NCBI GenBank assembly: GCA_017471045.1
Contig: JAFUWZ010000001.1
Span: forward strand, 1-47,834
Direction: 5' to 3'
Source: Bacteroidales bacterium
GTDB lineage: Bacteria; Bacteroidota; Bacteroidia; Bacteroidales; UBA932
DNA: 47,834 nt
Both the position numbers and the translations under genes were made by a program. Shown in pieces: positions 27,201 through 42,957 of this stretch. Positions within the stretch are counted from its first letter, which is position 1. Each line of letters starts with the position of its first letter. The notes below the pieces were generated by a model that was not told where the DNA came from, ran no database searches, and worked only from the letters and a program-made list of their open reading frames with translations.

Positions 27201-30200
27201 TTAGTTGGTGTGAAACTCGACACCGTAGATACGGAGGGCGCCGCTCGTGTAGATATACACCTTGCCGGCAGCGACATCGTAGGTATTGACAGTCGGATCG
27301 GATCCCGAAGGAGATCCACCGAACTTGCTTTCAGGTTCACCGTCACCGACGGCCACCAGCACGTTGCGGCCGGCCCCCTCGCTGTTGCCCGTATTGGAGC
27401 TTCTGACCGACACCGTACCCGCGGCAGGTGCATCAAAAGTCAGCACACGGTCTGTCTTGGAACCGGCACCCGCAACCTGGAGCGCATTGCTGGTGTAACG
27501 GTTCTTCGAGGTGGAGAAGAAGTTCAGGCCATCCACCGTGATATCCCAGGTGGCCGCAATATCCACTCCGGAAGTACCGAGCTTGGCAAACTCAGTCTGC
27601 CACGCAGCATCGGCGAAATTCCAGACATATTCCGCCGTGACCGGGGCACTGCCGCCACCGACACCGGTGAACTGGAAACGATAGAAACGTACACCGGCAT
27701 TGGGATAGATGAACACGGTTCCGGCCGTCACCTCAAACTCGAGCACATCCTTGTCGAGCGTCGTCGGAATCTGCTTGGTCTGCGCTACGCCGCTCGCATC
27801 GACGACACTGATCGTCCGCTCCGTACCATTGGAGGGGTTGGAGACCGTGACCTTCAGCGTTCCGTCCTGCGGCGTATCGAAGGAGAATACACGTTCGGTC
27901 GTGGAGCCGCCGCCGTTCGGCTGGATAAAGCCGCTGGCATCCCACTTGCCGTTCTTGGTACCGCTGGTATAGGTCAGACCATCCACGCTGACCGTCCAGC
28001 CGGCCTGGTTGGAGCCCTTCGCGGAAGCGGCATTCGCCTCCAGGGCAGCCTGCCATTCGGCGGATGAGATATCCCAGTCATACTCGACGGGAGGAGCACC
28101 GGCCTCCGTGTACGTAAACTCGAAGGCCCAGAAACGTACGCCCGCATTGGGATAGACATTGACTGTTCCGGCCGTCACCTCAAACTCGAGCACATCCTTG
28201 TCGAGCGTCGTCGGAATCTGCTTGGTCTGCACTACGCCGCTCGCATCGACGACACTGATCGTCCGCTCCGTACCATTGGAGGGGTTGGAGACCGTGACCT
28301 TCAGCGTTCCGTCAGCGGGAGCCTCGAAGGAGAATACACGCTCGGTTGCGGAGCCGCCGCCGTTCGGCTGGATAAAGCCGCCGGCATCCCACTTTCCGTT
28401 CTTGGTACCGCTGGTATAGGTCAGACCATCCACGCTGACCGTCCAGCCGGCCTGGTTGGAGCCCTTCGCGGAAGCGGCATTCGCCTCCAGGGCAGCCTGC
28501 CATTCCGGCGAGGAGAAATCCCAGGTCAGGGTCTTTTCCGTGCCGCTGACCGGCTTCTTGTTGATGGTCAACATGCCTTCAGCGAGTTCGGATTCGGCAT
28601 ATTTGGAGGAAGTCGGGACCGGACGGGCCTTGACCGTAACCGGATACTCCCCAATTGCAAGGGCTCCCACAAGGGCGGCATCCACGGTATAGGAAGGCTC
28701 GGTCAGGACGTACTCGACGCCCTGGAAAGTCAGGACATAGTCCGCGGCATTCCCGACTGCCGCCCAGGAGAAGACGACCGGCTCGGCGGTGCCTTCATCC
28801 AGCTTGGCCGGGCTCACGGAGAGCTTCGGCGTGGCAAGGATCTCCAGCGTCTCGTCCGGCGTCAGGTCTTTGGTCCAGGTGATCTTCTTGAGAGTGGCAG
28901 GTGCATCGGCGATCACGTAGATGCGGTTCTCCCCGACCAGGTCGCCCAGGACCACGGTGTGCTCCTGCCCGTCGGCCAGGACCGCATAACGGTCACCGCC
29001 GGCGAAGACCTCGAAGGTACCGATCCCGTCTTCACTGTCACCGGTCACCTTGACGGAGCCATAACCGACCGTCAGGATCTCGACCGCAGCATAGCTCGGC
29101 ACACCGTCGGGGCTGACGGCCGCCGTCGTCGGGAAGTCGATACCCTTGGACATCACCACGTTGGCCGGCACAGTCGCCGTCGCATAGATGCGGGCGTTGC
29201 CGATGATGGTGTTCTCCAGGAGTTCCTCGGTATCATAGATGGTCTTCTCCGTGAAGTCCCAGGTGTAGTCATCCTCGACCGGAACGAGTTCCTTCTCGCG
29301 GATGATCTCGGGCTGCACGGCATCCCACCAGCGCGGATCACCGGCCTTGAGGGACTTGATCCGCTCGCCGTCCGTACCGGTCAGGTACAGTTTGCCGGCG
29401 ATGGAGTTGATGCAAGGATCGCTCTCCATCAGGGTGGCGCCGTTGTTGGCGACCTCCTCGAACGTCTTTTCGCCCTGGGCATCCGCTTCGGCTGCGACCG
29501 CATTGGATACATACCAGGCGGCGCCCGTGTTGTAATAGACATTGTCCGAGCAGTCAACCCGGTAAGAGTCGGTCGAATTGCGGCACAGGCGCACCCAAGA
29601 GGTGTTGGCGTCTTCCTTTTCGCTGAACTCGTTCAGGAACACGTTCTTGACCGCTTTTACGCTCTTGGCTCCGGTCACGACACGGACCGCGAAGATACCG
29701 GCGTTGTTGGACGAGCTGTTGGTCGCAGTCACAAGGTTGAACGTGCAATTCTCGGCCAGGACGCTCTCGGCCTTGCCGCTGTCGGAGATACGGAAGAAGG
29801 TACGCGCACAGGCATAGAAGGTGGAATTGCGAACCACGAAGGAGCCGTTGGCGCCGTTGCGGACATCGATGAAGTCACCGCCTTCGGTGCCGGCCGCGTT
29901 GATGTCGTGGACATAGCAGCCGTCCACCAGGAAGGAAGCCACATGGGCTCCGGCAGCTCCGCCGGCCACGGAATAGAGGGCCTTGGTGTAGCCCGTGATT
30001 TCGCTGTTGATGTACTCCACGGCGCTCATGTCGGCGGACAGGTTCTCCGTCAGGGCGCCGGTACCGTTGCCGTCCAGCACGAGGTCTTCCAGATGGAGGA
30101 CGGAGGCGCCGGAGGCCAGGTTGAAGACCAGGGTCTTGACCGTGGGCTTCTTGCCCTCGGCCGTCGCATCGCCATAGAGGGAAACATCCCCCTTGACGGT

Positions 30201-31052
30201 GACCAGTTTGACCGCCGGATCCGGATAGGCATCCATCATGTCGATGCCGGCATCGGAATAAGCCAGCAGAAGCTTGACCGTACCTTCCTGGTTGTTGATG
30301 GCATTGTAGATTTCGCCGGCCGTATAGACGGTGTTGACACCATCCAGCACGGGACGGGTGAACGCCGTAACGGAGCCGCGGTTGCCGGCCTTGCCGAAGA
30401 GCAGGGTGAAACGGTACTCACGGGCAGGATCCAATCCGTCAAGGGTGGCGGAAGCCGCTGCGACCTGGTCGGCACTGAGGGTGACTTTCTTGCTTTCACC
30501 CTCGCCGATGACCGTTTCGACCTGCACGCTGGTCAGGTCCTCCATGTCGGAAGCCTTGTCCCATGCGAGTGTCACGGAAGAGCTGGTCCGGTCCGTCACG
30601 ACCGGATTCAGGGAGCTACGGACAGCCGAAGTGGAGAAGGTCTTCTCCAGATAAGCCCAGTTGGAAGTAGCGACATTGCTGTTGATACCGCGGATACGCG
30701 CATAGAAAGACTTGTCCACTTCCAGACCGTACACCGTATAGGGATTCTCATCGGCGGCCAGGATGTAGGTCCCGCCAATCTTGCTGCCGGTACTCTCCGG
30801 AGTCACCTCCTTGGAGCCGTCGGTCTGTTCGAAGATTTCAAGCACATAACCTTCCGCATTGACCATCTTCTGCCAGGAGAAGATGACATCCGTACCGGTG
30901 GAAGGGACCACCTCGGCTTCGAACTTCAAGGGAGTCAAGACCCGGTCATACTCCAATTCCTCCACCAGCGGATCCAGGGTACGGCAGCCGACGAGGGAGG
31001 CGCCGATGCCGAGAAGGCAGATCAGGGATTTATATAGTTTGTTCATATTCAT
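27201..31052 (-). CDS. Surface lipoprotein with DUF4957/DUF5123-like beta-helix and three C-terminal modules
   Basis: From 31052 the product has 1283 residues, with a lipoprotein signal ending at Cys23 (SLVGC) followed by RTLDPLVEELEYDRVLTP. Two Fn3-like modules (about 35-225) precede a right-handed beta-helix-like region (about 230-560) resembling DUF4957/DUF5123 proteins found with pectinase loci. The region to about 840 contains beta-sandwich modules. Three tandem modules end the protein, each beginning W-x-[FI]-[SA] and ending near YPNAGVRF or its equivalent; the first two are nearly identical. It takes the SusE position and probably binds pectin at the surface. Catalysis is not evident. 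An ATG at 31073 would overlap susD. Confidence 0.8.
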   Translation of the reverse strand: MNMNKLYKSLICLLGIGASLVGCRTLDPLVEELEYDRVLTPLKFEAEVVPSTGTDVIFSWQKMVNAEGYVLEIFEQTDGSKEVTPESTGSKIGGTYILAADENPYTVYGLEVDKSFYARIRGINSNVATSNWAYLEKTFSTSAVRSSLNPVVTDRTSSSVTLAWDKASDMEDLTSVQVETVIGEGESKKVTLSADQVAAASATLDGLDPAREYRFTLLFGKAGNRGSVTAFTRPVLDGVNTVYTAGEIYNAINNQEGTVKLLLAYSDAGIDMMDAYPDPAVKLVTVKGDVSLYGDATAEGKKPTVKTLVFNLASGASVLHLEDLVLDGNGTGALTENLSADMSAVEYINSEITGYTKALYSVAGGAAGAHVASFLVDGCYVHDINAAGTEGGDFIDVRNGANGSFVVRNSTFYACARTFFRISDSGKAESVLAENCTFNLVTATNSSSNNAGIFAVRVVTGAKSVKAVKNVFLNEFSEKEDANTSWVRLCRNSTDSYRVDCSDNVYYNTGAAWYVSNAVAAEADAQGEKTFEEVANNGATLMESDPCINSIAGKLYLTGTDGERIKSLKAGDPRWWDAVQPEIIREKELVPVEDDYTWDFTEKTIYDTEELLENTIIGNARIYATATVPANVVMSKGIDFPTTAAVSPDGVPSYAAVEILTVGYGSVKVTGDSEDGIGTFEVFAGGDRYAVLADGQEHTVVLGDLVGENRIYVIADAPATLKKITWTKDLTPDETLEILATPKLSVSPAKLDEGTAEPVVFSWAAVGNAADYVLTFQGVEYVLTEPSYTVDAALVGALAIGEYPVTVKARPVPTSSKYAESELAEGMLTINKKPVSGTEKTLTWDFSSPEWQAALEANAASAKGSNQAGWTVSVDGLTYTSGTKNGKWDAGGFIQPNGGGSATERVFSFEAPADGTLKVTVSNPSNGTERTISVVDASGVVQTKQIPTTLDKDVLEFEVTAGTVNVYPNAGVRFWAFEFTYTEAGAPPVEYDWDISSAEWQAALEANAASAKGSNQAGWTVSVDGLTYTSGTKNGKWDASGFIQPNGGGSTTERVFSFDTPQDGTLKVTVSNPSNGTERTISVVDASGVAQTKQIPTTLDKDVLEFEVTAGTVFIYPNAGVRFYRFQFTGVGGGSAPVTAEYVWNFADAAWQTEFAKLGTSGVDIAATWDITVDGLNFFSTSKNRYTSNALQVAGAGSKTDRVLTFDAPAAGTVSVRSSNTGNSEGAGRNVLVAVGDGEPESKFGGSPSGSDPTVNTYDVAAGKVYIYTSGALRIYGVEFHTN
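27715..28058 (-). repeat. Near-identical module repeat, copy 2
   Basis: This segment matches 28162-28505 with an offset of exactly 447 bp (149 codons). By eye only about a dozen bases differ over some 335 bp, clustered where the protein changes from PADG to PQDG and from SATER to STTER. It encodes about residues 999-1113 of the surface lipoprotein. Confidence 0.9.
28162..28505 (-). repeat. Near-identical module repeat, copy 1
   Basis: This is the partner of 27715-28058 and encodes about residues 850-964. A third, clearly diverged module follows copy 2 in the protein. Identity at silent positions suggests a recent duplication or gene conversion. Confidence 0.9.
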
Positions 31053-31059
31053 CTTGTTT

Positions 31060-33054
31060 TTAGAACTGGGCATAACCGTAATCGTTGACCAGGGCGCCCT
31101 GCATCGCGTTCATCGTGGCGGCATACATCGGCCAGACAGAGCGCGGATACGGGTCATCGAAGGCATTGCGGTAGAGGCAATTGTAGGTATAATTGCCCGT
31201 CGTGGAGTTGCGGAAGGCCTCGTTGCTGATATAGCGTTCCTGGACTTTCCAGCCGTTGGGCTCAGTCACGGAATAGTCCGCAGGGGTCTTGCCGATCTCA
31301 TTGGGATCCAGGCCGAAGAAGACGATCTTCTGATGGGCGTGGTCCTCCTTCCAATAGAGCGGATAGGTCTTGAACTGACGTCCTTCCGTCTCACGATCGG
31401 TCGCATACTGCGCATAGGCCGCATACGGTCCGGTCATCGTCGCCAGGGCTTCGATATCGTCCCGTTCCTCATCAAGGGCGGTCTTGAGGAGCTTCCAGCG
31501 GATCAGGTCCTGCTTGCGCAGGAATTCACCGGCAAACTCCAGCGCCCGCTCCTGGAAGATGGCGCCGAGGATCGTCGTCGGATCAGCATGGTCGGTCTCC
31601 ATGCCGGAACCGTCGGAAGCGGCGCTGCCCAGGGTCAGGGCGGAAGGTGCGACATATTTGGTCGCCGCCTTGCCGGCCATGGCGCGGTTGCGGACCTGGG
31701 CAAGATAATTCTGCGCATTGGAGAGTTCGCCTTCATAGGCCGCCAGCTCGGAAGCCATAAGAAGGATATCCGAGTAACGCATCACGATCGGCTTGATACC
31801 GTCGTCGTTTCCGCCGTTGTACGGCGTGTCGATCATCCATTCGTAACGGTATTTGCCCCAGAACCAGTAGTTGACGGCTCCGCGGAGTTCCCAGGCCTGG
31901 TCTTCACCGTTCCATCGCATATTGACGACGGTCAGGTCACGGCGGGAGTCATTCGGGTCGTACTTGAACCAGAGGTTGGCCGTCGGAAGGCTGCTGCCGC
32001 CCCGGCTGGAGTTGTTGGTGATCCAGGGACCGCCGGCCGTGTGGGGATAGGCGTGCGTATAGTTCCAGCGCCCGCGGGAATCACTGAAAGGAATCACCCA
32101 GAGAACTTCCGGGACGCCGGCCAGATGCTCGGAGTTGTTGAACTTTTTCCAGAAGGCCGTGTAGTCGGAAGCCAGGGAGGCGGAACCGGAATTGATGACA
32201 TCCTTCAGGTGCTGCAACGCCTTGGGATAGAGGACCGCGGCGGAGAGCTCGGGATCCGTGGTCAGGCGGAGCGAACCGTCGTTGCCGGTGTTGACCTTAC
32301 CCTCGTCCGGGCGCCAGGCCCAGCCGGCGGCCGACAGGGCGACACGGGCGTAGAGGCCTTTCGCGAAAGCCTTGTTCATCCGGTCACGACGGACCGTCTG
32401 CGGCTTCTCATCCGGCCAGTACAGGTAATCGGACGCTTCGTCCAGATCGGCGAGGATCACCTTGTAGATCTCGTCGCGGTCGGCCTTGCCGATATAGATG
32501 GTCTCACCGGAAACCGGCTCGGTGCGGAGCGGCACTTCACCCCACATCTTGATCAGCTCGAAATAGTAAAACGCCCGGTAGGTCAGGGCCTCGCCGAGGA
32601 GGTAGGCCATGTCGGGATCATTCTCCACATCCCCATAGGCGCGCAGGCCGCGGATGCAGAGATTGGCCCGTTCGATACCGGTCACCAGTTCATTGTAAGC
32701 ATTGGTGGCGGTACTCATCTGGGTATTGTTGGGAGCATCGTTGTATTCCGCCATCCGGATGCGGATCTCGACGGATTCCAGTGCGTTGTCGGGAGAACCG
32801 GCGGAATTGGAGCTATAGGTCTCGAGGTCCGTGTTCATTCCGTAGAAAAGGTGGATACGGCCGCGATAGGAATTCGTATGACCGCAAACCTCACCGATAC
32901 CGAAGATGTTGTATTCAGCCAGCGTATAGTTGGAGAAAACGACGTCTTCGGCATATGCGGACTGGGACGGGGCGTCCAAAGCGCTGTCCAGTACATTGCA
33001 AGAAGCGGCAAGAACGACTGCGAAAAGGATAGGAATGTATTTTTTCATATTCAT
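31060..33054 (-). CDS. SusD-like glycan-binding lipoprotein
   Basis: SusD proteins cap the SusC transporter and bind oligosaccharides at the cell surface. The 664-residue product has a lipoprotein signal with Cys19 (FAVVLAASC), the N-terminal LDSALDAPSQSAY, TPR-like helices with YLLGEALTYRAFYYFELIKMWG and VPLRTEPVSG, and the C-terminal ILLMASELAAYEGELSNAQNYLAQVRNRAM. It is longer than SusD of B. thetaiotaomicron but within the wider family. It starts 12 bp after the susC-like stop. An in-frame ATG at 33048 is an alternative start. Confidence 0.94.
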   Translation of the reverse strand: MNMKKYIPILFAVVLAASCNVLDSALDAPSQSAYAEDVVFSNYTLAEYNIFGIGEVCGHTNSYRGRIHLFYGMNTDLETYSSNSAGSPDNALESVEIRIRMAEYNDAPNNTQMSTATNAYNELVTGIERANLCIRGLRAYGDVENDPDMAYLLGEALTYRAFYYFELIKMWGEVPLRTEPVSGETIYIGKADRDEIYKVILADLDEASDYLYWPDEKPQTVRRDRMNKAFAKGLYARVALSAAGWAWRPDEGKVNTGNDGSLRLTTDPELSAAVLYPKALQHLKDVINSGSASLASDYTAFWKKFNNSEHLAGVPEVLWVIPFSDSRGRWNYTHAYPHTAGGPWITNNSSRGGSSLPTANLWFKYDPNDSRRDLTVVNMRWNGEDQAWELRGAVNYWFWGKYRYEWMIDTPYNGGNDDGIKPIVMRYSDILLMASELAAYEGELSNAQNYLAQVRNRAMAGKAATKYVAPSALTLGSAASDGSGMETDHADPTTILGAIFQERALEFAGEFLRKQDLIRWKLLKTALDEERDDIEALATMTGPYAAYAQYATDRETEGRQFKTYPLYWKEDHAHQKIVFFGLDPNEIGKTPADYSVTEPNGWKVQERYISNEAFRNSTTGNYTYNCLYRNAFDDPYPRSVWPMYAATMNAMQGALVNDYGYAQF

Positions 33055-33066
33055 CGTCCTCCTTGA

Positions 33067-36000
33067 TTATTTGATGATACAGACAGCCACACGGTTGGAC
33101 TCAGGAGATGCGGAAACATCCTTGTCGGTACCCGCAGCGGCGGAAGTGATACGGCTGGCAGCGATGCCGGCCTTCTTGAGCATGTCCGCCACCGCGGCAG
33201 CACGCAGCTGGGAAAGCGTCATGTTGATATCGTTCGTACCGGTGCCGCTGTCGGCATATCCGGTGATGGCGATCTTGGCATCCGGGTTGTCCTTCAGGAT
33301 CTGGGAGATCTGGCCCAGCTTGAAGGCTTCGTCGGGACGGAGCTCGGCCTTGCCGATGAGGAAGAAGAGGTCATCCTCGTAGGTCCCGTTGAGGGTCGCG
33401 CCCACGGGGACCTTGACTTCCTTGACGACTTCCTTGACGACCGGCTTTTCGACGATCTTCTCCTTGATGACTTCCTTGATGACTTCCTTGGCCTGGGCGA
33501 GGTCCGCCGTAGCCTTGGCCGGGCTGTAACCGCCGGCACCGAAAGTCAGGTTGACGCCGAATACGAAACTGTGGCTCTTCGGATAGGCCGAGTAGTCCAC
33601 ATTCGGGGTCAGGTGGTTGGTGGAAGAGCTGCGCGTGTCCACTTCCGGATCATAGCCGGAATAAGGGGTCAGCACGAAAACGTTGTTGGCCGTCGCATAA
33701 AGGCGCAGCTTGGAGATGTTGATCTTCTGCGTCAGGGTCTCGGGAAGGGTGTACCCCACGGTCAGGTTCGCCAAGCGCAGGAAGGAGGCATCTTCGAGCG
33801 CGTAGGACTGCATGATGCGCTTGGTATTGTACGGAGCCCACATCGTCTTGCCGGCATTGACCTGGCGGAGACGGTCCACGTCCGTGATCCTCTCACCCGT
33901 CGCCCAGTCCACGTTGGTCCAGCGGTTGTCCGGGGACATCGCGGCGATCACGTTCTGGCCATAGGAGCCACGGATGGTCGTGAAGTCGAGCTTGTTGGCG
34001 TTGTACACCTTGTTGCCGTAGCTGTAGGTGAAGTTGGCGCTGAGATCGAACCCGTACAGGTAGCCGGAGAGGGTGAAACCGCCGGTGAAGAGGGGCTGCA
34101 CGTTGCCGATCAGGGTGATGTCATTCTCGTTGATGGCGCCGTCCGGGGTCCCGTCGGGGCCGCTGACATCCTTGAGTTTCATCGCGCCGGGAATGGAAGT
34201 ATAGCCCGTGATCGTCGCCGCATCCGGAATGCCCGGAAGCAGGGTCCAGACGTTCGTCGCGGGATCGTACGTGAAATCATCCACCGTGTACATCCCGTCC
34301 GTCACGAAACCATAGACATCGCCCAGGGGGCGGCCCTTCGTGACCGCGTAATCGTACGTAATCTCGGAGGAGAACATATTCGCATTGGCCGTGATGCTGT
34401 CCAGGCCTCCCAGATCGGTGACCCGGTTTTGGTTGAAGGAGATGTTGGCATCCATGTTCAAACCATAGTTCTTGGAGCGAAGGATCTCGCCACCCAGGGT
34501 CAGTTCGACACCGCGGTTGCGGATGGAACCGAGATTGCGGTACTGGTAGTTGTAACCGGAACCGTTGACGGGGAAGCGGATGAGCAGGTCACGGGTGTCA
34601 GCCTGGTAGACTTCGAGGCTGCCGTAAAGGCGGCTGTTGAAGAAGCTGAAATCCAGACCGAGGTTGTGGGAATAGGTGGTCTCCCACTTCAGGTTCGCAT
34701 TGGGCATATCCGTGTCCGCACCCCACCAGACGGCGCCCTGGCTCATCCAGGAAGAATTGTTGGTGGAATACTCCTGCAGGGTCTTGCCGGAAGGAATATT
34801 GTTGTTACCGGCGGTACCGAAGGAATAGCGGAGTTTCAGGTTGTCGAGCCAGGTCCGGGTATTTTCCATGAAGTCTTCGCCCGAGATTCTCCAGGAGACG
34901 GCGGCCGAAGGGAAATAACCCCAGCGGTTGCCGCGGGTGAACTTGGAGGATCCGTCCGCACGCATCGTCGCGGAGAACTGGTATTTGTCTTTCAGCGTAT
35001 AGTTGACACGGCCGAAGAAAGACAGGATCTTGTCGTCATTGGCATAGGCGTTGCCGATCGAATGCGGCGCCTCGCCGGAGGCAAGGAAATTCCAGGCCAT
35101 GGCGGAATCAAAGAAGTCGGGCAGGCCGTCCATCACCGCATCGAACGTGTTGGACTTGGTGACGATGTATTCCGTACCGACCAGCAGATCCAGTTTGTGC
35201 TCCTCGGGAAGGATCTTCTTGAAATTGTAGGACAAGGTATTGGTGTTGCGGAGCTTGCGGCGGGTCAGGTCGATCCACTCGGCCGCAGGGTTGTAGTTGA
35301 AGCCCGGCAGGACGTTGTTGCGGACATAGTAGGAAGTCAGTCCATAGAACTTGTCGTCCGTCCGGCGATACTCGTCCAGACCACCCTCCAGGCGCAGCCG
35401 CAGATTGTCGATGATGGTCCACTGGAAGGCGCCGTTGGCCGTCCACTGGGTCCGGTTCTGCCTGCTGTCGCTGTCCGCGATGGCGATCAGCGGGTTGACG
35501 GAGCTGTTGTAGTCTTCCTCCACGTCGGTATCGCTCATCACGGACTCGGCCGGGATCGGGGAATAGACGATGGAGTTCTTCAAGCGGGACTGCGAGGTGG
35601 AGCCCTTGTCGTTGATGGCATTGGCGCCGGCGCCGGATACCCGCGTATTGGCATAGCGCACATTCACGTCGAAAAGGAGTTTCTTGGTCGGCGTGAACTG
35701 GCCCTTGAAGTTGAGGTTGTTACGCGCAAAATCGGAGCCGGCCATGATGGCCGTCTCGTCCAGATGCGCATAACCGAGCGTCCACTTGAACACGTCGGAA
35801 CCGCCGGAAACGCTGACGTTGGCGGAGGCGTTGTGGCCGGTACGGCCGAACACCTGGTCCACCCAGTCATTGGTCGCCATCCCCTTGTACAGATCGATAT
35901 CGGAGAAGGCACCATAGCGGGACTCGTAGCTGGAAAGGCTGTTCCGGAACAAGGCATACTCGTACTGGGTACGCACGAAGTCATAGGCATCCTGCGGGAC

Positions 36001-36762
36001 GAAGGCATACTTGTTGGCCATCGTCTTGATGCCGGCATAGGCGTTGAACGTGACCTGGATCTTGCCCTCCTTACCGCTCTTGGTCGTCACGATCACGACA
36101 CCGTTGGCACCGCGGCTGCCGTAGATCGCCGTCGAGAAGGCGTCCTTCAGGACATCGATGGACTGGATGTCGGAGGCCGGGATGTCGGAAATGGACTCCA
36201 TCGGGAAGCCGTCCACGATGTAGAGCGGGCTGCTGTCCTGGGTGATGGATCCGGCGCCACGGACACGGATTTTCACGTCCGCATCGGGATCACCTTCCGT
36301 CGTTGTGATCTGGACACCGGCCATCTTACCGGACATTGCCTCGGTCACGGAGGCCACCGGGACCTGGGTCAGGGCTTCGGAGTTGACCGAAGAGACGGAA
36401 CCCATGACGTCGCGGCGGGACACCGTCGCATAACCGACCACGACCACTTCGTCGAGGAAGTTTGCATCTTCCTTCATCGTGACGTTGATTTCCGTCCGCC
36501 CTCCGATCGGGACGGTCTGGTCGCTCAGTCCGATGAAAGAGAACACAAGATTCTTCGCATCGGCCGGTACGGTGAGTTCGTAGTCTCCGTCAAGTCCGGT
36601 CACCACGCCGATCGTGGTCCCTTCGACGAAAACTCCGGCTCCCATCAGGGGCTCGCCGCCCTCGTCCGTCACGACGCCCTTGATGGTCGTCTGGGCGGAC
36701 AGGGACAGGGCCGCTGAGAGGCCTAGCAGCGCAAGAATGAGTTTCTTTGCTGGTTTTTTCAT
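33067..36762 (-). CDS. SusC-like TonB-dependent transporter with C-terminal OmpA domain
   Basis: SusC proteins import oligosaccharides across the outer membrane using TonB energy. The 1231-residue product has a signal peptide (1-23), a carboxypeptidase-regulatory-like domain (about 25-110), a TonB-box-like DEVVVVGY, the plug (YIVDGFPMESISDI, IYGSRGANGVVIVTTKSG) and a 22-strand barrel ending FVFGVNLTF at 1066-1074, where SusC proteins normally stop. A Lys/Glu/Val-rich linker (1075-1122) and an OmpA-like domain (1123-1231) follow. Asp1171, Arg1187 and Asn1223-Arg1224 match the peptidoglycan-binding positions. The frame is continuous and susD follows 12 bp later. Confidence 0.95.
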   Translation of the reverse strand: MKKPAKKLILALLGLSAALSLSAQTTIKGVVTDEGGEPLMGAGVFVEGTTIGVVTGLDGDYELTVPADAKNLVFSFIGLSDQTVPIGGRTEINVTMKEDANFLDEVVVVGYATVSRRDVMGSVSSVNSEALTQVPVASVTEAMSGKMAGVQITTTEGDPDADVKIRVRGAGSITQDSSPLYIVDGFPMESISDIPASDIQSIDVLKDAFSTAIYGSRGANGVVIVTTKSGKEGKIQVTFNAYAGIKTMANKYAFVPQDAYDFVRTQYEYALFRNSLSSYESRYGAFSDIDLYKGMATNDWVDQVFGRTGHNASANVSVSGGSDVFKWTLGYAHLDETAIMAGSDFARNNLNFKGQFTPTKKLLFDVNVRYANTRVSGAGANAINDKGSTSQSRLKNSIVYSPIPAESVMSDTDVEEDYNSSVNPLIAIADSDSRQNRTQWTANGAFQWTIIDNLRLRLEGGLDEYRRTDDKFYGLTSYYVRNNVLPGFNYNPAAEWIDLTRRKLRNTNTLSYNFKKILPEEHKLDLLVGTEYIVTKSNTFDAVMDGLPDFFDSAMAWNFLASGEAPHSIGNAYANDDKILSFFGRVNYTLKDKYQFSATMRADGSSKFTRGNRWGYFPSAAVSWRISGEDFMENTRTWLDNLKLRYSFGTAGNNNIPSGKTLQEYSTNNSSWMSQGAVWWGADTDMPNANLKWETTYSHNLGLDFSFFNSRLYGSLEVYQADTRDLLIRFPVNGSGYNYQYRNLGSIRNRGVELTLGGEILRSKNYGLNMDANISFNQNRVTDLGGLDSITANANMFSSEITYDYAVTKGRPLGDVYGFVTDGMYTVDDFTYDPATNVWTLLPGIPDAATITGYTSIPGAMKLKDVSGPDGTPDGAINENDITLIGNVQPLFTGGFTLSGYLYGFDLSANFTYSYGNKVYNANKLDFTTIRGSYGQNVIAAMSPDNRWTNVDWATGERITDVDRLRQVNAGKTMWAPYNTKRIMQSYALEDASFLRLANLTVGYTLPETLTQKINISKLRLYATANNVFVLTPYSGYDPEVDTRSSSTNHLTPNVDYSAYPKSHSFVFGVNLTFGAGGYSPAKATADLAQAKEVIKEVIKEKIVEKPVVKEVVKEVKVPVGATLNGTYEDDLFFLIGKAELRPDEAFKLGQISQILKDNPDAKIAITGYADSGTGTNDINMTLSQLRAAAVADMLKKAGIAASRITSAAAGTDKDVSASPESNRVAVCIIK

Positions 36763-36801: not shown

Positions 36802-38646
36802 TTATAGTTTCGTATAGGTCCCGCCATTGTTGCCGCCGCCGACAATGTCCTTCACCAGGTAGTGCAGGTACATTTCCAGATTGGTATAGCGGCCGTTCTT
36901 GTCCAGCCAGACGACCGTACCGTCGGCTTTGTTCTTATCCAGGCCGAACTGGTCCTTGAACCAGTCGGGCATGCCGTCCTGGTCCGTATCGGAAATCTTG
37001 GCAAGCTCTTCGGGCGAAGCCTTGTATTCCGGCCAGCCGCCCACATCGACCGGGGTATCGATGATCTTGCCCGTGTTGTCGCGCACACCGGCTACGGCGC
37101 GCTCGTCCACGGCGTCCCGGTGCAGCCGGTCTCCGGCATACGCGAGCACCGCCTCCATGCCGGCCTGGACCGTATGCGTAGTCGTATAGGCCGCTTTCGA
37201 GGCCGGTCCGGTGATGGTATGGGCCGTGCCCTGAAGAGCCCCGCTGCCGCCGTTGTGCCAATAGATGCCCTTCGTGTTGTCGGTGCTGATGTCGCTGTAT
37301 TTCGTATGGTGGTTGCCGCTCAGGAAGAGCGCCGGATATCCATAGTTTACGGCCGTCTTGTCGCTGCGCGTGTAGTCGCGGTACGCATCTACGAAATAGT
37401 GCCGGTCCTTGGAGTCCGGACCCGGCTGGTACCAGCAGTTGACAAAGTTGAACTCGCCGCCCTCGCCGCCGTAGGAGCTGTTGTCGCCCCAGTTGTAAAC
37501 GACCAGGTTGCGCAGGTCGACGCTGCCCCGCTTCGACCAGTCGAAGCTTTCCCCGGACTTGGGATAAATCTCCGGATGGTCGATGCGCGGATTGCGGCTG
37601 TGGTGGTTGGACAGCAGATTATGGTGGAAAGAGGCGTTTTTGCCGCCCCAGATGCCGCCATAGCCGTGGGAGCCCTTGGAATGGGCGCTGTTGTTCATGC
37701 TCTCCGTGAGAATGCACCATTGGAGCGTCATATTCTCATTGGCATAGAAAGACGCGCACTCGTCGATGGACCAGCTCATTGAGCAATGGTCCAGGATGAG
37801 ATTCTTCTGATAGCGGCCCCAGATGCAGTCCTCGCCGTCTCCGGCATTCGGTCCTTCGTCGCCGAGGCGGAAGTGGAGATAGCGGATGATGATGTTGTCG
37901 GCCGCAATGTTGACCGTATAGTTCTTGATGCAGATCCCGCCGCCGGGAGCCGTCTGGCCCGCAACGGTCAGGTTGCCGTTCTTGATCTGGATGGCCGAAT
38001 TCAGGGCGATGATCCCGGCCACGTCGAAGACCACGATCCGCGCCCCGGAGGCCGTCAGGGCCGCCCGCAGGGAGCCGGCGCCACTGTCATTGAGGTTGGT
38101 CACATGGATCACCTGGCCGCCACGGCCGCCGGTGACATACATGCCGCCGCCTTCCGCGCCCGGGAAAGCCCGTGCCACGCCATCCTCTTCGACAGAAGGA
38201 ATGCCGAACTGCTGATACACGGCATCGGAGACGGGCGTCACCGGATCCGGACCCGGTCCCGGAGGTTCCGGTTCGGGCTCGACAGCACCGCCGGGAATGC
38301 CCTCGACGGCTTCGGACCAGGAAGAAGCGGACGTCCCGGCCACAGCCCGGACGGAGAAAAGATAGGTCACGCTCTTGGTCAGGCCGTCGATGATCGCCGT
38401 CGTGTTCTTGGTGGTACCGGCCTGGACCTCACTGCCGTTCTGCGTCAGCTTCCATTCGTAAGACTCGGCCTGGGACACGGCCTCCCAATGGAAAATCAGG
38501 GAATGATCCGTATAGCGGTTGAGCTGCGCCACCGGCGCTGCAAGAGAAACCGAAGACGTGGGAGGCGTATCGGGCCCCGGCTCCCCGCAAGAAACAGCCA
38601 GGGAGGCCAGGACGGCCGTCAGGATCAAAGGCAGCAATTTCCTCAT
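36802..38646 (-). CDS. Secreted pectate lyase, PL1-like, with Fn3 domain
   Basis: Pectate lyases cleave homogalacturonan by beta-elimination, giving unsaturated oligomers. The 614-residue lipoprotein (Cys20 in LAVSC) has an Fn3-like domain (about 38-120), a Pro/Glu linker and a right-handed beta-helix starting FPGAEGGGMYVTGGRGG. The PL1-type blocks ITVAGQTAPGG-like (LTVAGQTAPGGGICI), ILDHCSMSWSIDECAS and HHNLLSNHHSRNPRI are visible. DTDQDGMPDWF near the C terminus is a calcium-loop-like repeat. It overlaps the GH105 stop by 4 bp. The 39-bp gap to susC holds no obvious -7 element, so they may be co-transcribed. Confidence 0.9.
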   Translation of the reverse strand: MRKLLPLILTAVLASLAVSCGEPGPDTPPTSSVSLAAPVAQLNRYTDHSLIFHWEAVSQAESYEWKLTQNGSEVQAGTTKNTTAIIDGLTKSVTYLFSVRAVAGTSASSWSEAVEGIPGGAVEPEPEPPGPGPDPVTPVSDAVYQQFGIPSVEEDGVARAFPGAEGGGMYVTGGRGGQVIHVTNLNDSGAGSLRAALTASGARIVVFDVAGIIALNSAIQIKNGNLTVAGQTAPGGGICIKNYTVNIAADNIIIRYLHFRLGDEGPNAGDGEDCIWGRYQKNLILDHCSMSWSIDECASFYANENMTLQWCILTESMNNSAHSKGSHGYGGIWGGKNASFHHNLLSNHHSRNPRIDHPEIYPKSGESFDWSKRGSVDLRNLVVYNWGDNSSYGGEGGEFNFVNCWYQPGPDSKDRHYFVDAYRDYTRSDKTAVNYGYPALFLSGNHHTKYSDISTDNTKGIYWHNGGSGALQGTAHTITGPASKAAYTTTHTVQAGMEAVLAYAGDRLHRDAVDERAVAGVRDNTGKIIDTPVDVGGWPEYKASPEELAKISDTDQDGMPDWFKDQFGLDKNKADGTVVWLDKNGRYTNLEMYLHYLVKDIVGGGNNGGTYTKL

Positions 38647-39821
38647 TTCATTTCATATTCCAGCGCCGCCCAGATCAGCGGTCCGATCCCCTTGGGGTCG
38701 TTGCTGCGGACGGGTTCGTTGATATAATAGTCATAGTCGCCGCGGCGCATCTGCTTGCCGCCCAGGCCTGCCACCTCGCAGCAGCTGTCCAGGTTGACAA
38801 GACCGTCCGCGCCGGTGCGCACGAAGGCTTTCACCATGTCTTCAAACGCACGTCGGGCATCCGCGCGCGTAACGTCTTCCAGCAGGCCCAGGCGCGTGCC
38901 CTTGAGCAGCGCGTAGGCGAACATCGCGTTGCAGGTGGCCTCCAAGTAGTTGCCTTCCGCGCCCGGGCGGTCCAGCACCTGGTACCACAGCCCGCTCTGC
39001 CGGTCGGCAAACAGGGGCAGGGCGGCGAAAACCCGGTTCAGCAGGTTGACGAGCGCGTCGTGCCCCTCCCCTTCCGGGAGCATCGGGATCACATCCACCA
39101 ACGCCATCGCATACCAGCCCATCGCCCGTCCCCAGGCGTGCTCGGACTGCCCGGTCGCGGGATCGCACCAGAACATTTGGTGCGAGGAGTCCCAGGCGTG
39201 CCGCAGCAGGCCGGTGGCCGGGTCAAAGGTGTGGTCATAGACCAGCACGAACTGGTGTACGATGTCGGCGTAGTTGCGCGCCTGGAGCGAATCCGGCACG
39301 AAACGCCCCGTGTACTGCGCATAGAAGGGCTGGGCCATGTAGAGGCCGTCCAGCCACATCTGGTCGGGGTAGATCTTCTTGTGCCAGAAGCCGCCTTCCG
39401 GGGTGCGGGGCTGCTCCTGGATCTGGCGGTAGAGGGTGTCCATCACCCGGCGGTATTTCTCCTTGCCCGTCATCTCGTACAGGCGGAACAGCGTGCGGCC
39501 CGGGCAGATGTGGTCGGTAGTGTAATTGAGACGCTTGTAGTTGGGGATCATGCCGGCCGTGTCGATGATGGCGTCGTACCAGTCCTCGACATAGTCGAAG
39601 ATCTCCTCTCCGCCGTAACGGTCATACACGTCCAGGAAGGCTTTGAGCTCCAGGCCAGTGGTATAGTTCCACTTGAGGGTGCCCTCGCGGCCGTCGAGCC
39701 AGGAGGCTTCCGGGCAGCGGGCCATCTCGCTGCGCACCACCTCCACGGAAAGCGGAACCCGGGCCGTGCAGGCGGCCAGGGTCAGAAGGGTCAGAAGAAG
39801 GATCAGTCGTTGTTTCATCAT
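38643..39821 (-). CDS. GH105 unsaturated uronyl hydrolase
   Basis: GH105 enzymes remove the unsaturated uronate from the non-reducing end of oligosaccharides made by pectin lyases. The 392-residue protein has a lipoprotein signal (Cys18 in TLAAC) and the (alpha/alpha)6 barrel markers TLKWNYTTGLELKAF, GGFWHKKIYPDQMWLDGLYMA with the probable catalytic Asp158, and HAWGRAMGWYAMALVD. The lipobox suggests it acts in the periplasm or at the surface. Both ends overlap neighbours by 4 bp. Specificity for galacturonyl or rhamnogalacturonyl products cannot be told from sequence alone. Confidence 0.9.
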   Translation of the reverse strand: MMKQRLILLLTLLTLAACTARVPLSVEVVRSEMARCPEASWLDGREGTLKWNYTTGLELKAFLDVYDRYGGEEIFDYVEDWYDAIIDTAGMIPNYKRLNYTTDHICPGRTLFRLYEMTGKEKYRRVMDTLYRQIQEQPRTPEGGFWHKKIYPDQMWLDGLYMAQPFYAQYTGRFVPDSLQARNYADIVHQFVLVYDHTFDPATGLLRHAWDSSHQMFWCDPATGQSEHAWGRAMGWYAMALVDVIPMLPEGEGHDALVNLLNRVFAALPLFADRQSGLWYQVLDRPGAEGNYLEATCNAMFAYALLKGTRLGLLEDVTRADARRAFEDMVKAFVRTGADGLVNLDSCCEVAGLGGKQMRRGDYDYYINEPVRSNDPKGIGPLIWAALEYEMK

Positions 39822-41491
39822 CGGTTGTCATAAGGGTCCCAGCGGATCCCGTCCTGCGGCTGGTACATCACTTGATCGAAACTGTATTCCGCAACCTGGC
39901 GTGCCTTCAGCTGATGCGACCACTTGACCCGCGGCCCGCGGGCACCGGGACCGGTCGAACCGTATTCGGCATAATAGGAATTCTTCTTCGTATCCGGCTT
40001 GCCGGGCTTGTCCCAGTCGTGCCAGCCCTCCGGCAGGATGTGCGCGCCAAGCTCGCAGTCAATGAATACGGTCCGCGCGTACGCGCCCCAGGGACGGCCG
40101 AGATAGACCTTGTCGATGCCGGGCGCCGCCGTCAGCGTGCAGTTCTTGAAGACGTAACCGTATTTCTGGTCCTCAAAGGTGGAGGCCGCGGTGACGTAGC
40201 TGTTTTTCTTCGAGTGGATCCGGCAATGCTCGAAATAAGCGATCGAGGGTCCGAAGATGAAGTCGGTCGTCCCCTCGATGTAGCAGTCGAGGAAGTAGTT
40301 GCGCTTCACGCCGCCGTTCTTGCCATAGCGACCGTAGGTATAGAGGGTGTCCTGGTTGCCGAGAAAGCGGCATCCCTTGAAGAACAGGAAGTCGCCGTCC
40401 GTGAAGACCGCCACGGCCTGACCGATCTCCTTCCCCTCGCCGGCGCTGTTTTCAAATGTCAGGTTCTCGAAGGTGACATAGCTGGCGTGGATGTAGATCG
40501 TAGCGCTGCCGGAAGTGCCGACCTTGAAGTCGCGTCCGGGCCAGCGCTGCTCGGCATATTTGTCATTCGTGATGACGGTGGACCCAGCCTCTTCCCCGAC
40601 GATGTGCAGGCGGAACTTGGTGTGCGGGATCGTCACTTCCTCCTTGTAAGTCCCCTTGCGGATCAGGATGTCGGTGATCTCGGCGTGGCTGTAGTCCGGA
40701 CAGGCGTCGATCGCTTCCTGCACCGTCATATAGTCACCATGCCCATCGGACGAAACCACGATGTGGAAGTAGCGCAGATGCTCCGCGATCCCGGGCAGCT
40801 GCTCCCGCACCTTGCCGCAGACGATCTCAGCGACCTTGCGGGCGCCGCTGGCGACCGTGTGGGTATTGTCCGTCTTGCCCTCGGGGGCGCAGGCATACTG
40901 CCCGGGGGCCAGGTGCATGAAATAGGGGCGGGACGCCTCGTCGCCCAGTCCTTCGATCCAGTCGAGGGTCGGCGTCGTGATGTCCAGCAGGGTGACGCCC
41001 TTTTCGGCGGCGACCGCCTTCATCGCGGCCGGATAGTCGCCGTGACAGGCGCGGTCCAGCCGGCCGTTCTTGAACCAGCGGCGCGCCACGGGGGTCAGCA
41101 GCACCGGCGTGCCGCCCTTCGAGCGCGTCTCGTCGATGAAGCGGCGCAGGTTGTCCTGGTAGGCGCCCCAGGGAGCCGCATAGCGCTCCGGGTCGCTCTC
41201 CTTGGCGTCGTTGTGGCCGAACTGGATGAAGACATAGTCCCCGGGCCTGACCGCAGCGATCACCTTGTCCCAGAGCCCCCGCTCAATGAAGCTCTTGGTG
41301 CTGCGCCCGTTCTGGGCATAGTTGACGACCTGCGCGCCTTCGTCCAGGAAATTCTGGAACATCATCCCCCAGCCGCGCTCGGGATTGCCTTTGGAAAGGT
41401 CTTTCTCGGCCATCGTGCTGTCGCCGCAGAGATGGATGGTGAAGGAACTCGCCGTCAGCCAGACGGCGATCAGGAGAAGGATGCGTCTCAT
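39818..41491 (-). CDS. Fusion of CE12-like acetylesterase and CE8 pectin methylesterase
   Basis: This 557-residue secreted protein joins two pectin esterases. Residues about 18-235 are an SGNH hydrolase like rhamnogalacturonan acetylesterases, with Ser25 in CGDSTMAEK, GHND (92-95) and Asp208/His211 in TDNTH. Residues about 242-557 are a pectin methylesterase beta-helix with Gln358, NQDTLY (Gln380, Asp381), TTDFIFG (Asp410) and YLGRPWGAYARTV (Arg466, Trp468). It would remove acetyl and methyl groups so that PL1 and GH28 can act. The start at 41491 overlaps GH28 as ATGA. The frame upstream of it is shadow sequence. Confidence 0.92.
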   Translation of the reverse strand: MRRILLLIAVWLTASSFTIHLCGDSTMAEKDLSKGNPERGWGMMFQNFLDEGAQVVNYAQNGRSTKSFIERGLWDKVIAAVRPGDYVFIQFGHNDAKESDPERYAAPWGAYQDNLRRFIDETRSKGGTPVLLTPVARRWFKNGRLDRACHGDYPAAMKAVAAEKGVTLLDITTPTLDWIEGLGDEASRPYFMHLAPGQYACAPEGKTDNTHTVASGARKVAEIVCGKVREQLPGIAEHLRYFHIVVSSDGHGDYMTVQEAIDACPDYSHAEITDILIRKGTYKEEVTIPHTKFRLHIVGEEAGSTVITNDKYAEQRWPGRDFKVGTSGSATIYIHASYVTFENLTFENSAGEGKEIGQAVAVFTDGDFLFFKGCRFLGNQDTLYTYGRYGKNGGVKRNYFLDCYIEGTTDFIFGPSIAYFEHCRIHSKKNSYVTAASTFEDQKYGYVFKNCTLTAAPGIDKVYLGRPWGAYARTVFIDCELGAHILPEGWHDWDKPGKPDTKKNSYYAEYGSTGPGARGPRVKWSHQLKARQVAEYSFDQVMYQPQDGIRWDPYDNR

Positions 41492-42957
41492 AGTGCCTTG
41501 CCGTTGATGGTTACCGCCTCGAAACGGACGTCTTCCGCGTACTGGATGCGTGCGTCCTGGTCCGAGGTGAAAGTGCTGTGTTTGAATTCGATCCCGCGCA
41601 CGGGCATTTCCGGCAGGCCATTGATGAAGACGGCTTGCCGGGCGCCGCTGCAGACGATGTCCGAGAAATGGAAATCCCGGAACTCGGGCGTCGTCTCGTC
41701 CACGGGCCGCAGGTCCGCGCCGGCGCCTTCCTTGAGATCGGTCGCCGCTACGCCCTCGTAGTAGAGGTTGAAGATCACCCCGTAGGTGACGATGTCTTTC
41801 ATGTAAATGTGGTCGCACCAGATGTCCTTGACCCGTCCGCCGCGGCCGCGGGTGCTCTTGAAGCGCAGGCCTACGTCCGTGCCGATGAAGCGGCAGCCCG
41901 TGACCCGGATGTTCTCCACGCCGCCGGACATCTCGCTGCCGACGACAAAGCCGCCATGGCCGTGATAGACCGTACAGTCGGAGATGATCAGGTTGCGGCA
42001 TTTGCGCGCGTGGCGCCGGCCGTCTTCGTCCTTGCCGGACTTGATGCAGATGGCATCGTCTCCGACGTCGAAACTGGACCCGACGAGGATCACATTCTCA
42101 CAGGCGTCGATGTCGATGCCGTCGCCGTTGGCCGAATAGTGGGGATTGCGGACGGTGATGCCGCGGATGGTCAGGTCCTTGCACCAGAGGGGGTGCAGGT
42201 TCCAGCAGGGGCTGTTCTGGAAGGTCACACCGTCCAGCAGGATGCGCTCGCATTCGCGCAGCGACACCAGGACGGGGCGGAGGAAAGTCTTGATCTCCTG
42301 CTCGTCCAGGGAAGGATCGGGATAGTTGAGCGAACCGGCGGTCAAGCGCGCCTTCTTGTACCCTTCGTCGGGATACCAGACCTTCCCGTCGTCCGAGAGG
42401 ACGCCGCCCCGCCGGAGGATGGCCGCCCACTGGGTCTGGCCGACCTTGACCTGCTTGACCTCGCGCCAGGCATCTCCGCTGCCGTCGATGATGCCGCGGC
42501 CGGTGATGGCGATGTCGGTCGCCCCTTCGGCGTGGATTGGAGAAGTGCAGCGACGCACGTCCAGGCCTTCGAAGTTGGTGTCAATGATGGGATAGAGATC
42601 CTGGTCGGGATCGAAGACGATCAGCGCATCGGCATCCAGGTGCAACTCGATGTGGCTCTGCAGGGCGACGGGGCCCGTCCTCCAGATGCCGGCCGGCACG
42701 ACAAGACGGCCGCCGCCCTTCGCGGCGAGCGCGCCGATCGCCTGGGCGAAAGCCTCCGTGTTGAGCGCGACGCCGTCACCGACGCCGCCGAAATCGGTCA
42801 GCACGGCGCTGCGGGCAGGAATCCGGGGCTGCGCGACTTTTTCCATCTCGAAGGGCAGGCCTTCGTAGAGGGAATCCAAACGTTTGTATTCTTTGTCGCA
42901 AGAACAAAGGACCAGCAGGCCCAAGGCCAGCAGTATCAGGGAGTGTCGATGGAGCAT
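41488..42957 (-). CDS. GH28 polygalacturonase, lipoprotein
   Basis: GH28 enzymes hydrolyse galacturonan. The 489-residue product has a lipoprotein signal (Cys20 in LCSC) and a right-handed beta-helix with the four family motifs: N277-G-D279-G, D300-D301, GHGG around His334 and R365-F-K367. The early DFGGVGDGVALNTEAF is typical of bacterial exo-acting members, so release of galacturonate monomers is inferred. Its own promoter and operator lie upstream. It is the first of four genes joined by 4-bp overlaps. Confidence 0.92.
   Translation of the reverse strand: MLHRHSLILLALGLLVLCSCDKEYKRLDSLYEGLPFEMEKVAQPRIPARSAVLTDFGGVGDGVALNTEAFAQAIGALAAKGGGRLVVPAGIWRTGPVALQSHIELHLDADALIVFDPDQDLYPIIDTNFEGLDVRRCTSPIHAEGATDIAITGRGIIDGSGDAWREVKQVKVGQTQWAAILRRGGVLSDDGKVWYPDEGYKKARLTAGSLNYPDPSLDEQEIKTFLRPVLVSLRECERILLDGVTFQNSPCWNLHPLWCKDLTIRGITVRNPHYSANGDGIDIDACENVILVGSSFDVGDDAICIKSGKDEDGRRHARKCRNLIISDCTVYHGHGGFVVGSEMSGGVENIRVTGCRFIGTDVGLRFKSTRGRGGRVKDIWCDHIYMKDIVTYGVIFNLYYEGVAATDLKEGAGADLRPVDETTPEFRDFHFSDIVCSGARQAVFINGLPEMPVRGIEFKHSTFTSDQDARIQYAEDVRFEAVTINGKAL
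42877..42886. promoter_or_regulatory. Operator-like CAAACGTTTG palindrome inside GH28
   Basis: A perfect CAAACGTTTG lies 71-80 bp downstream of the GH28 start codon, in codons for Tyr-Lys-Arg-Leu. Its centre is 137 bp, close to 13 helical turns, from the centre of the identical palindrome in front of the gene. This spacing would suit looping by a tetrameric or paired LacI-type repressor. Confidence 0.55.

Follow-up and report, generated by a model that had tools for sequence, protein, structure and literature searches.

SusC-type importers carrying a C-terminal OmpA-like domain, a putative peptidoglycan anchor, recur within a family of Bacteroidales

The SusC–OmpA fusion gene and its locus

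The window analysed here, a stretch of 47,834 nucleotides from a Bacteroidales bacterium (assembly GCA_017471045.1, contig JAFUWZ010000001.1), is contig 13 (C13) of a 2.62-Mb draft host genome made up of 73 contigs. A single stop-free frame of 1231 codons, running from position 36762 to 33067 on the minus strand, encodes a SusC-type transporter that continues through a linker of Lys/Glu/Val (K/E/V) repeats into an OmpA-like domain. The gene is divided as follows.

33067–36762, minus strand: SusC–OmpA fusion gene (open frame, with TIGR04056 and PF00691 matches)
36439–36684, minus strand: CarboxypepD_reg-like N-terminal extension, residues 27–108 (PF13715, E 1.7e-17)
36097–36417, minus strand: TonB-receptor plug, residues 116–222 (PF07715, E 3.7e-18)
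33541–36687, minus strand: SusC part, residues 26–1074, comprising the CarboxypepD-like extension, the plug and the barrel (TIGR04056)
33397–33540, minus strand: K/E/V-repeat linker, residues 1075–1122 (from the sequence; low-confidence and irregular in both structure models)
33070–33396, minus strand: OmpA-like domain, residues 1123–1231 (PF00691 at 1133–1221; OmpA fold in the model)
33250–33252, minus strand: D1171, predicted diaminopimelate contact (60 of 60 fused tails)
33202–33204, minus strand: R1187, predicted diaminopimelate contact (60 of 60 fused tails)
33091–33096, minus strand: N1223–R1224 (59 of 60 fused tails; the remaining tail has a gap)

The SusC/RagA family model TIGR04056 is matched over its positions 2–981 of 981 (843.3 bits against a cut-off of 368.25, E 3e-253), and the SusC/RagA signature TIGR04057 is present at residues 198–228 (61.8 bits against a cut-off of 46.2). 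The family match stops at residue 1074, at the end of the motif FVFGVNLTF, and is followed by 157 further residues that form the linker and the OmpA domain; the latter matches PF00691 over residues 1133–1221 (56.6 bits, E 3.5e-15; cut-off 27.2 bits). An earlier note on this DNA had described a frame that runs past the usual SusC end into such a linker and domain, and the two profile searches, both above cut-off, bear this out; its placement of the extension at 33067–33540 is correct and corresponds to codons 1075–1231 plus the stop. Neither an SLH nor an AMIN domain was among the Pfam matches of the fusion protein up to E 0.1. According to the profile matches, the small OmpA-type barrel of Bacteroidales OmpA porins is absent before the domain, and the barrel is that of SusC.

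The fusion lies downstream of a pectin-type gene set on the same strand, consisting of PelZ-like, polygalacturonase-like, GH88, pectinesterase and GH43 genes, and is followed by its SusD partner.

31060–33054, minus strand: SusD partner of 664 aa, starting 12 bases downstream of the fusion (PF07980, E 6e-17; PF14322, E 1.5e-14)
36802–38646, minus strand: pectate lyase PelZ-like protein (NF041900, 130 bits, under its cut-off of 840)
38643–39821, minus strand: glycosyl hydrolase family 88 (PF07470, E 5.3e-96)
39818–42001, minus strand: pectinesterase with GDSL domain (PF01095, E 6.4e-61; PF13472, E 5.5e-18)
41488–42957, minus strand: polygalacturonase-like protein (NF051860, 257 bits, under its cut-off of 600)
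3873–5279, plus strand: MurE, meso-diaminopimelate ligase, as context for the expected wall ligand (NF001126, 554.9 bits, cut-off 373)

The meso-diaminopimelate ligase reported earlier for the same window is indeed encoded there, and from this MurE the host wall is predicted to be of the diaminopimelate type. The SusD gene is followed by a gene for a 1290-aa protein with fn3 and DUF4957 domains (27201–31073, minus strand), which contains two 300-nt direct repeats, 91% identical, at 27667–27966 and 28114–28413; the repeats likely reflect a recent internal duplication, and the product is likely a surface glycan-binding protein.

Pocket residues, linkers and fold of the tail

After identical domains had been merged, the tail set contained 60 fused and 80 free OmpA domains, one of the fused ones (L226) ending at a contig end. 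In the alignment, D1171, N1180 and R1187 are invariant in all 60 distinct fused domains, and the pair N1223–R1224 is present in 59, the remaining one having a gap. D1171, R1187, N1223 and R1224, which the earlier note had listed as the diaminopimelate-holding residues, are found at those numbers, and the pocket residues are kept in the fused tails; the roles of D1171 and R1187 as diaminopimelate contacts are ones that we take to be as in Acinetobacter baumannii OmpA. The OmpA-type domain of Pal has been solved with TolB (2hqs, 4r40), so that such domains can bind proteins, and the fused domain might bind a periplasmic protein partner or act as a sensor instead of serving as an anchor. The diaminopimelate-contacting residues are, however, unchanged in the 60 fused tails, making this alternative improbable.

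Two types of linker occur on fused tails, the K/E/V repeat and an Ala-rich, coiled-coil-like type. With the lead-in to the first OmpA strand, the linker measures approximately 53–76 residues in 52 K/E/V tails and 76–82 residues in 7 Ala-rich tails, omitting L222, whose linker could not be delimited. Free Bacteroidales OmpA proteins share the K/E/V-like linker with the fused tails, as had been proposed; it was counted in 54 of 66, a number biased by the K/E/V pattern with which the underlying scan selected its sequences. In four fused tails, L237–L240, the C terminus is RRVTV, as it is in canonical OmpA domains, and these tails form long branches inside the K/E/V group.

The model of the tail, which is of modest confidence (mean pLDDT 62.8), shows the β-α-β-α-β-β OmpA fold, mostly at 59–88 pLDDT, with a disordered linker. 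Among the nearest solved folds in a structure search are those of OprF, PorE and A. baumannii OmpA; for A. baumannii OmpA they extend to complexes with diaminopimelate and the stem pentapeptide (3td4, 3td5). The nearest chain by sequence profile is 9uu2, ‘Major outer membrane protein’. A 1200-residue model of similarly modest confidence (mean pLDDT 61.7) has utilisome SusC and RagA as its first matches and places the last barrel strand at residues 1063–1074. By analogy with the known topology of TonB receptors, the linker would exit the barrel into the periplasm.

Fusions in the host genome

The host genome contains 36 SusC matches above cut-off, corresponding to 35 distinct SusCs, and 13 OmpA domains, 9 of which sit in SusC-size frames. 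All 5382 bases of contig C62 repeat part of C49 at 99.98% identity, a redundancy in the draft; with this copy discounted, 8 of the 35 distinct SusCs are SusC–OmpA fusions, five with a K/E/V linker (C13, C3, C17, C70 and C49) and three with an Ala-rich linker (C35, C47 and C71). The other 27 of the 35 have no tail, and the tail is therefore not required for import as such. The free OmpA-type proteins of the host are two OmpA porin-like proteins and a YiaD-type lipoprotein, and an OmpA fragment at the end of C69 has a sequence like the free type.

An assembly artefact joining a SusC gene to an OmpA gene was considered, given a draft of 73 contigs with at least one redundant contig. It was rejected, its probability being negligible: the identical layout recurs in eight different genes of the host and in assemblies made independently, among them metagenome-assembled genomes (MAGs) from other projects. 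Examples from these MAGs are L064, L065 and L073, whose barrels are the nearest to that of the window. On host contig C71, the SusC genes L039 and L047 lie approximately 3.6 kb apart and are near relatives in the barrel trees, and only one of them is OmpA-tailed; judged from sequence, this is a pair in which the tail was apparently gained or lost after duplication.

Partner genes and glycan range

A SusD-type gene follows 54 of 58 fusions. The region downstream was examined for 59 fusions, among which 53 are followed by a match to an iterated SusD profile (built on those same proteins), L058 by a gene that is SusD-like by Pfam, and one lies at a contig end; downstream of the remaining four (L070, L215, L234 and L235) the SusD profile was unmatched. 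These four are followed by a lipoprotein-like protein of 457–469 aa, which in L070 carries BACON domains. SusD is found by Pfam beside all eight host fusions. The neighbours of other fused SusCs in the host include GH31, GH106 and an α-L-fucosidase gene, so the tail is not restricted to a single glycan, and the suggestion that it is tied to pectin import does not hold.

Distribution in the genus, family, order and phylum

Genomes were scanned with a K/E/V pattern, one per species, and the best 80 of 102 confirmed loci were compared. The 14 nearest among them (65–93% identity) all lie within SusC-matching frames and come from Bacteroidales or Bacteroidia MAGs, several of them named for goat, deer, reindeer or buffalo gut samples; the frames that contain the other 66 (34–48%) do not match SusC and are mostly of approximately 390 aa. 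The taxon samples that follow consisted of genomes drawn evenly from larger groups. In the genus sample, 48 K/E/V tail matches of at least 156 bits, the next match having 125 bits, were found in 20 of 151 genomes, the host’s own included; 45 of the 48 are in frames of at least 1081 aa, one is truncated at a contig end, and another two are apparently split by frameshifts. Such split SusC–OmpA genes, each in two overlapping frames, are seen at L071/L210 and L212, and may reflect decay or assembly error.

The family sample (249 genomes) added three more genomes with such tails, all of one second genus. In the order sample (393 genomes), only the host and one free OmpA in a 390-aa frame passed E 1e-30, and in the phylum sample (395 genomes) nothing beyond the host passed E 1e-26; fusions to more distant OmpA domains would escape a K/E/V profile applied with strict E-values. 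A profile spanning the barrel end, linker and OmpA domain, with at most nine candidates scored per genome, was run on order (247 genomes) and phylum (238 genomes) samples, where the only full-span matches among those listed were the host’s own, the others covering the SusC end or, twice, the OmpA part in 373- and 400-aa frames. Fusions beyond the family were thus absent among the matches listed in the order and phylum samples, although rare ones may exist. Tails of the Ala-rich type turned up in the host and in two other genomes of the genus, G012 and G071; in a family sample, the host alone had them. The fusion that the earlier note described is real but not a lone case: the genome scans reveal a tail that recurs on many SusCs in the genus and a second genus, with a second, Ala-rich linker type.

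Tail and barrel descent are at odds

Several host fusions have similar tails on dissimilar barrels. The barrels of C13 and C70 are 30% identical and their OmpA domains 83%; the corresponding values are 30% and 81% for C13 and C17, 33% and 86% for C70 and C17, and 57% and 100% for C3 and C17. Less striking are C13 and C49 (28% and 64%) and C35 and C71 (31% and 72%), and C13 and C35, which carry different tail types, share 27% in the barrel and 42% in the OmpA domain. C70 and its counterpart in another species, L067, are 85% identical in both parts. The OmpA part likewise shows fewer synonymous differences (pS) than the barrel between C3 and C17 (0.21 versus 0.69), L065 and L067 (0.26 versus 0.54) and C13 and C70 (0.34 versus 0.55). 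No such gap is found between C13 and C49 (dS 1.23 in the OmpA part, 1.02 in the barrel), C47 and C71 (2.00 and 1.39) or C35 and C71 (1.67 and 1.84), the barrel dS values being rough and close to saturation.

Across 51 K/E/V fusions (1275 pairs, excluding L226, whose tail is cut by the contig end), 1163 pairs have barrels less than 40% identical, with tails that average 62–65% identity; tails reach at least 80% in only 19 of these 1163. Of 66 orthologue-like pairs, 48 have a tail that is less conserved than the barrel. Mean tail identity is 65.4% within genomes and 62.1% between them, a difference matched by 80 of 5000 label shuffles. The average of 62–65% between far barrels could be explained by constraint alone. 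As the sole cause of similar tails, constraint was rejected as insufficient, since in some pairs the synonymous differences of the OmpA part are far below those of the barrel.

Trees point the same way. In the tail tree, 53 K/E/V tails form one group and 7 Ala-rich tails another, with a support of 99 each, and the Ala-rich group sits near the host’s own free OmpA proteins; the two tail types are perhaps derived from two separate OmpA sources. The barrel trees (FastTree and a quick LG+G4 tree) both carry long-branch warnings. On the FastTree of 87 rows, from which frames shorter than 850 aa were excluded, the K/E/V label requires 13 changes, of which well-supported branches force 11, and the Ala-rich label requires 4, these counts being blind to gain versus loss. 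The tails of C13, C17 and C70 form a close group and their barrels do not; conversely, a barrel group of K/E/V-tailed members (C3, C17, L069 and L206) contains one, L246 on contig 41 of G012, with an Ala-rich tail. In a test of host barrels on 35 rows, from which the partial match L252 was excluded, a single clade was rejected both for the five K/E/V barrels (AU p 0.0004) and for all eight fused barrels (AU p 7e-55). A single clade of all 60 tails was not rejected by the AU test (p 0.955), the constrained tree scoring higher than the quick tree, which is weak at 113 columns.

A tail already present in the ancestor of these SusCs, followed by many losses and never exchanged, would be compatible with label counts that do not distinguish gain from loss, and a constrained OmpA domain could hold approximately 60% identity while barrels fall to 25%. 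Such a history would nevertheless leave the grouping of the C13, C17 and C70 tails, the low pS of the C3 and C17 OmpA parts, the other kind of tail on the C3/C17-type barrel of L246 and the lower conservation of the tail in most orthologue-like pairs at odds with it, and is accorded a low probability. On the sequences at hand, the tail looks exchangeable between SusC barrels, though exchange is not a general rule across pairs.

The dN/dS of the OmpA part is 0.00–0.30 in 14 pairs, which indicates that the tail is kept by selection. Movement of the tail between barrels would also be expected if it were a neutral or selfish passenger that recombination carries from one paralogue to another; set against these dN/dS values and the unchanged pocket residues, that explanation is very improbable.

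Relation to known systems

The closest relatives of the fusion as a whole are the SusC/RagA transporters, namely the dextran and levan utilisome SusCs and RagA, which share the entire SusC model, the SusD partner and the nearest fold; their family model ends at the equivalent of residue 1074, and the fusion adds the 157 residues of linker and OmpA domain. Free Bacteroidales OmpA porins (approximately 390 aa) have the same kind of K/E/V or Ala-rich linker and OmpA domain, but on a small barrel of their own, whereas the barrel of the fusion is a SusC importer. The OmpA domains of PorE, Pal, OprF and A. baumannii OmpA have the same wall-binding fold and are among the nearest to the tail, but belong to separate proteins and not to a TonB-gated importer. 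AMIN domains bind peptidoglycan elsewhere. AMIN-type TonB receptors resemble the fusion in being TonB receptors with an added domain (PMC6434023, excerpts), which differs in being N-terminal and of a different kind. That survey of 34,893 TonB receptors distinguishes five architectures at the N terminus, AMIN being one of the domains, and in the excerpted text leaves C-terminal ones unsorted. The main text of the levan and dextran utilisome paper, so far as it was available, does not contain the terms OmpA and peptidoglycan (PMC7618045), and the wall cross-links named in the available part of a review of outer-membrane assembly are Lpp, OmpA and Pal (PMC13067283). The arrangement had been thought unusual, and no report of a C-terminal OmpA domain on a SusC protein or TonB receptor was found in the open-licence PMC literature.

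OmpM/SlpA of diderm Terrabacteria, like the fusion, unites an uptake channel and a wall tether in one protein (PMC10628300, excerpts), but has an N-terminal SLH domain and is a trimeric diffusion porin without a TonB plug. Since OmpM joins tethering and uptake (PMC10628300, excerpts), the fused tail might serve the envelope and not the importer, SusC barrels providing extra outer-membrane-to-wall tethers as OmpM does in diderm Firmicutes; tails do occur on SusCs of several polysaccharide utilization loci (PULs). The host, however, has free OmpA-domain proteins, so that its wall is already tethered without fused tails, and the majority of its SusCs lack one. PUL importers are, moreover, usually produced only on their own glycan and would be poor as a standing tether, and a role in the envelope at large seems unlikely.

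Proposed role of the tail

The fusion protein is probably a SusC glycan importer with a built-in, non-covalent peptidoglycan anchor, the tail having been added repeatedly. The sequences establish the anatomy of the gene, its recurrence, the kept pocket residues, purifying selection, the partnership with SusD and the discord between tail and barrel; that the linker exits into the periplasm, that the tail binds the wall and that the cell benefits is what we infer from them. Weighing against this reading are the 27 host SusCs without a tail and the free OmpA-domain proteins, by which the host wall is tethered in any case. In the proposed mechanism, the plug and barrel would function like those of any SusCD pair, SusD acting as the lid. 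From the periplasmic end of the barrel, a flexible tether of approximately 50 residues would lead inward to the OmpA domain, which would hold the stem peptide of the peptidoglycan by its diaminopimelate side chain. Both the importer and whatever surface complex is built on it would thereby be pinned to the wall, and the drift of the importer should slow. The anchor may also give the importer footing when TonB pulls the plug; force through TonB is reported to remodel the BtuB plug (PMC5413942, excerpts), and ExbD of the Ton motor to bind peptidoglycan (PMC11658791, excerpts).

Within this bacterial family, the tail would be a module placed on SusCs of different descent. The somewhat favoured account of its history is that of an anchor cassette spread by recombination among the SusCs of one family, perhaps from two OmpA sources, giving rise to a class of wall-anchored TonB-dependent importers in which the anchor fixes complexes in place or takes the TonB load. 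The apparent movement of the tail between different importers of these uncultured gut bacteria hints at an advantage of attaching an importer to the wall.

The modules are known and their combination was not found described; it is recurrent and under selection, and its tail and barrel are discordant in descent. The placement of outer-membrane importers and their hold against the pull of TonB are questions for which these genomes provide a natural experiment, since tailed and tailless SusCs coexist in them and one barrel type carries different tails. The tail is a ready module with which an outer-membrane protein could be pinned to the wall, and the fusions exemplify the exchange of C-terminal domains as an evolutionary route for PUL importers.
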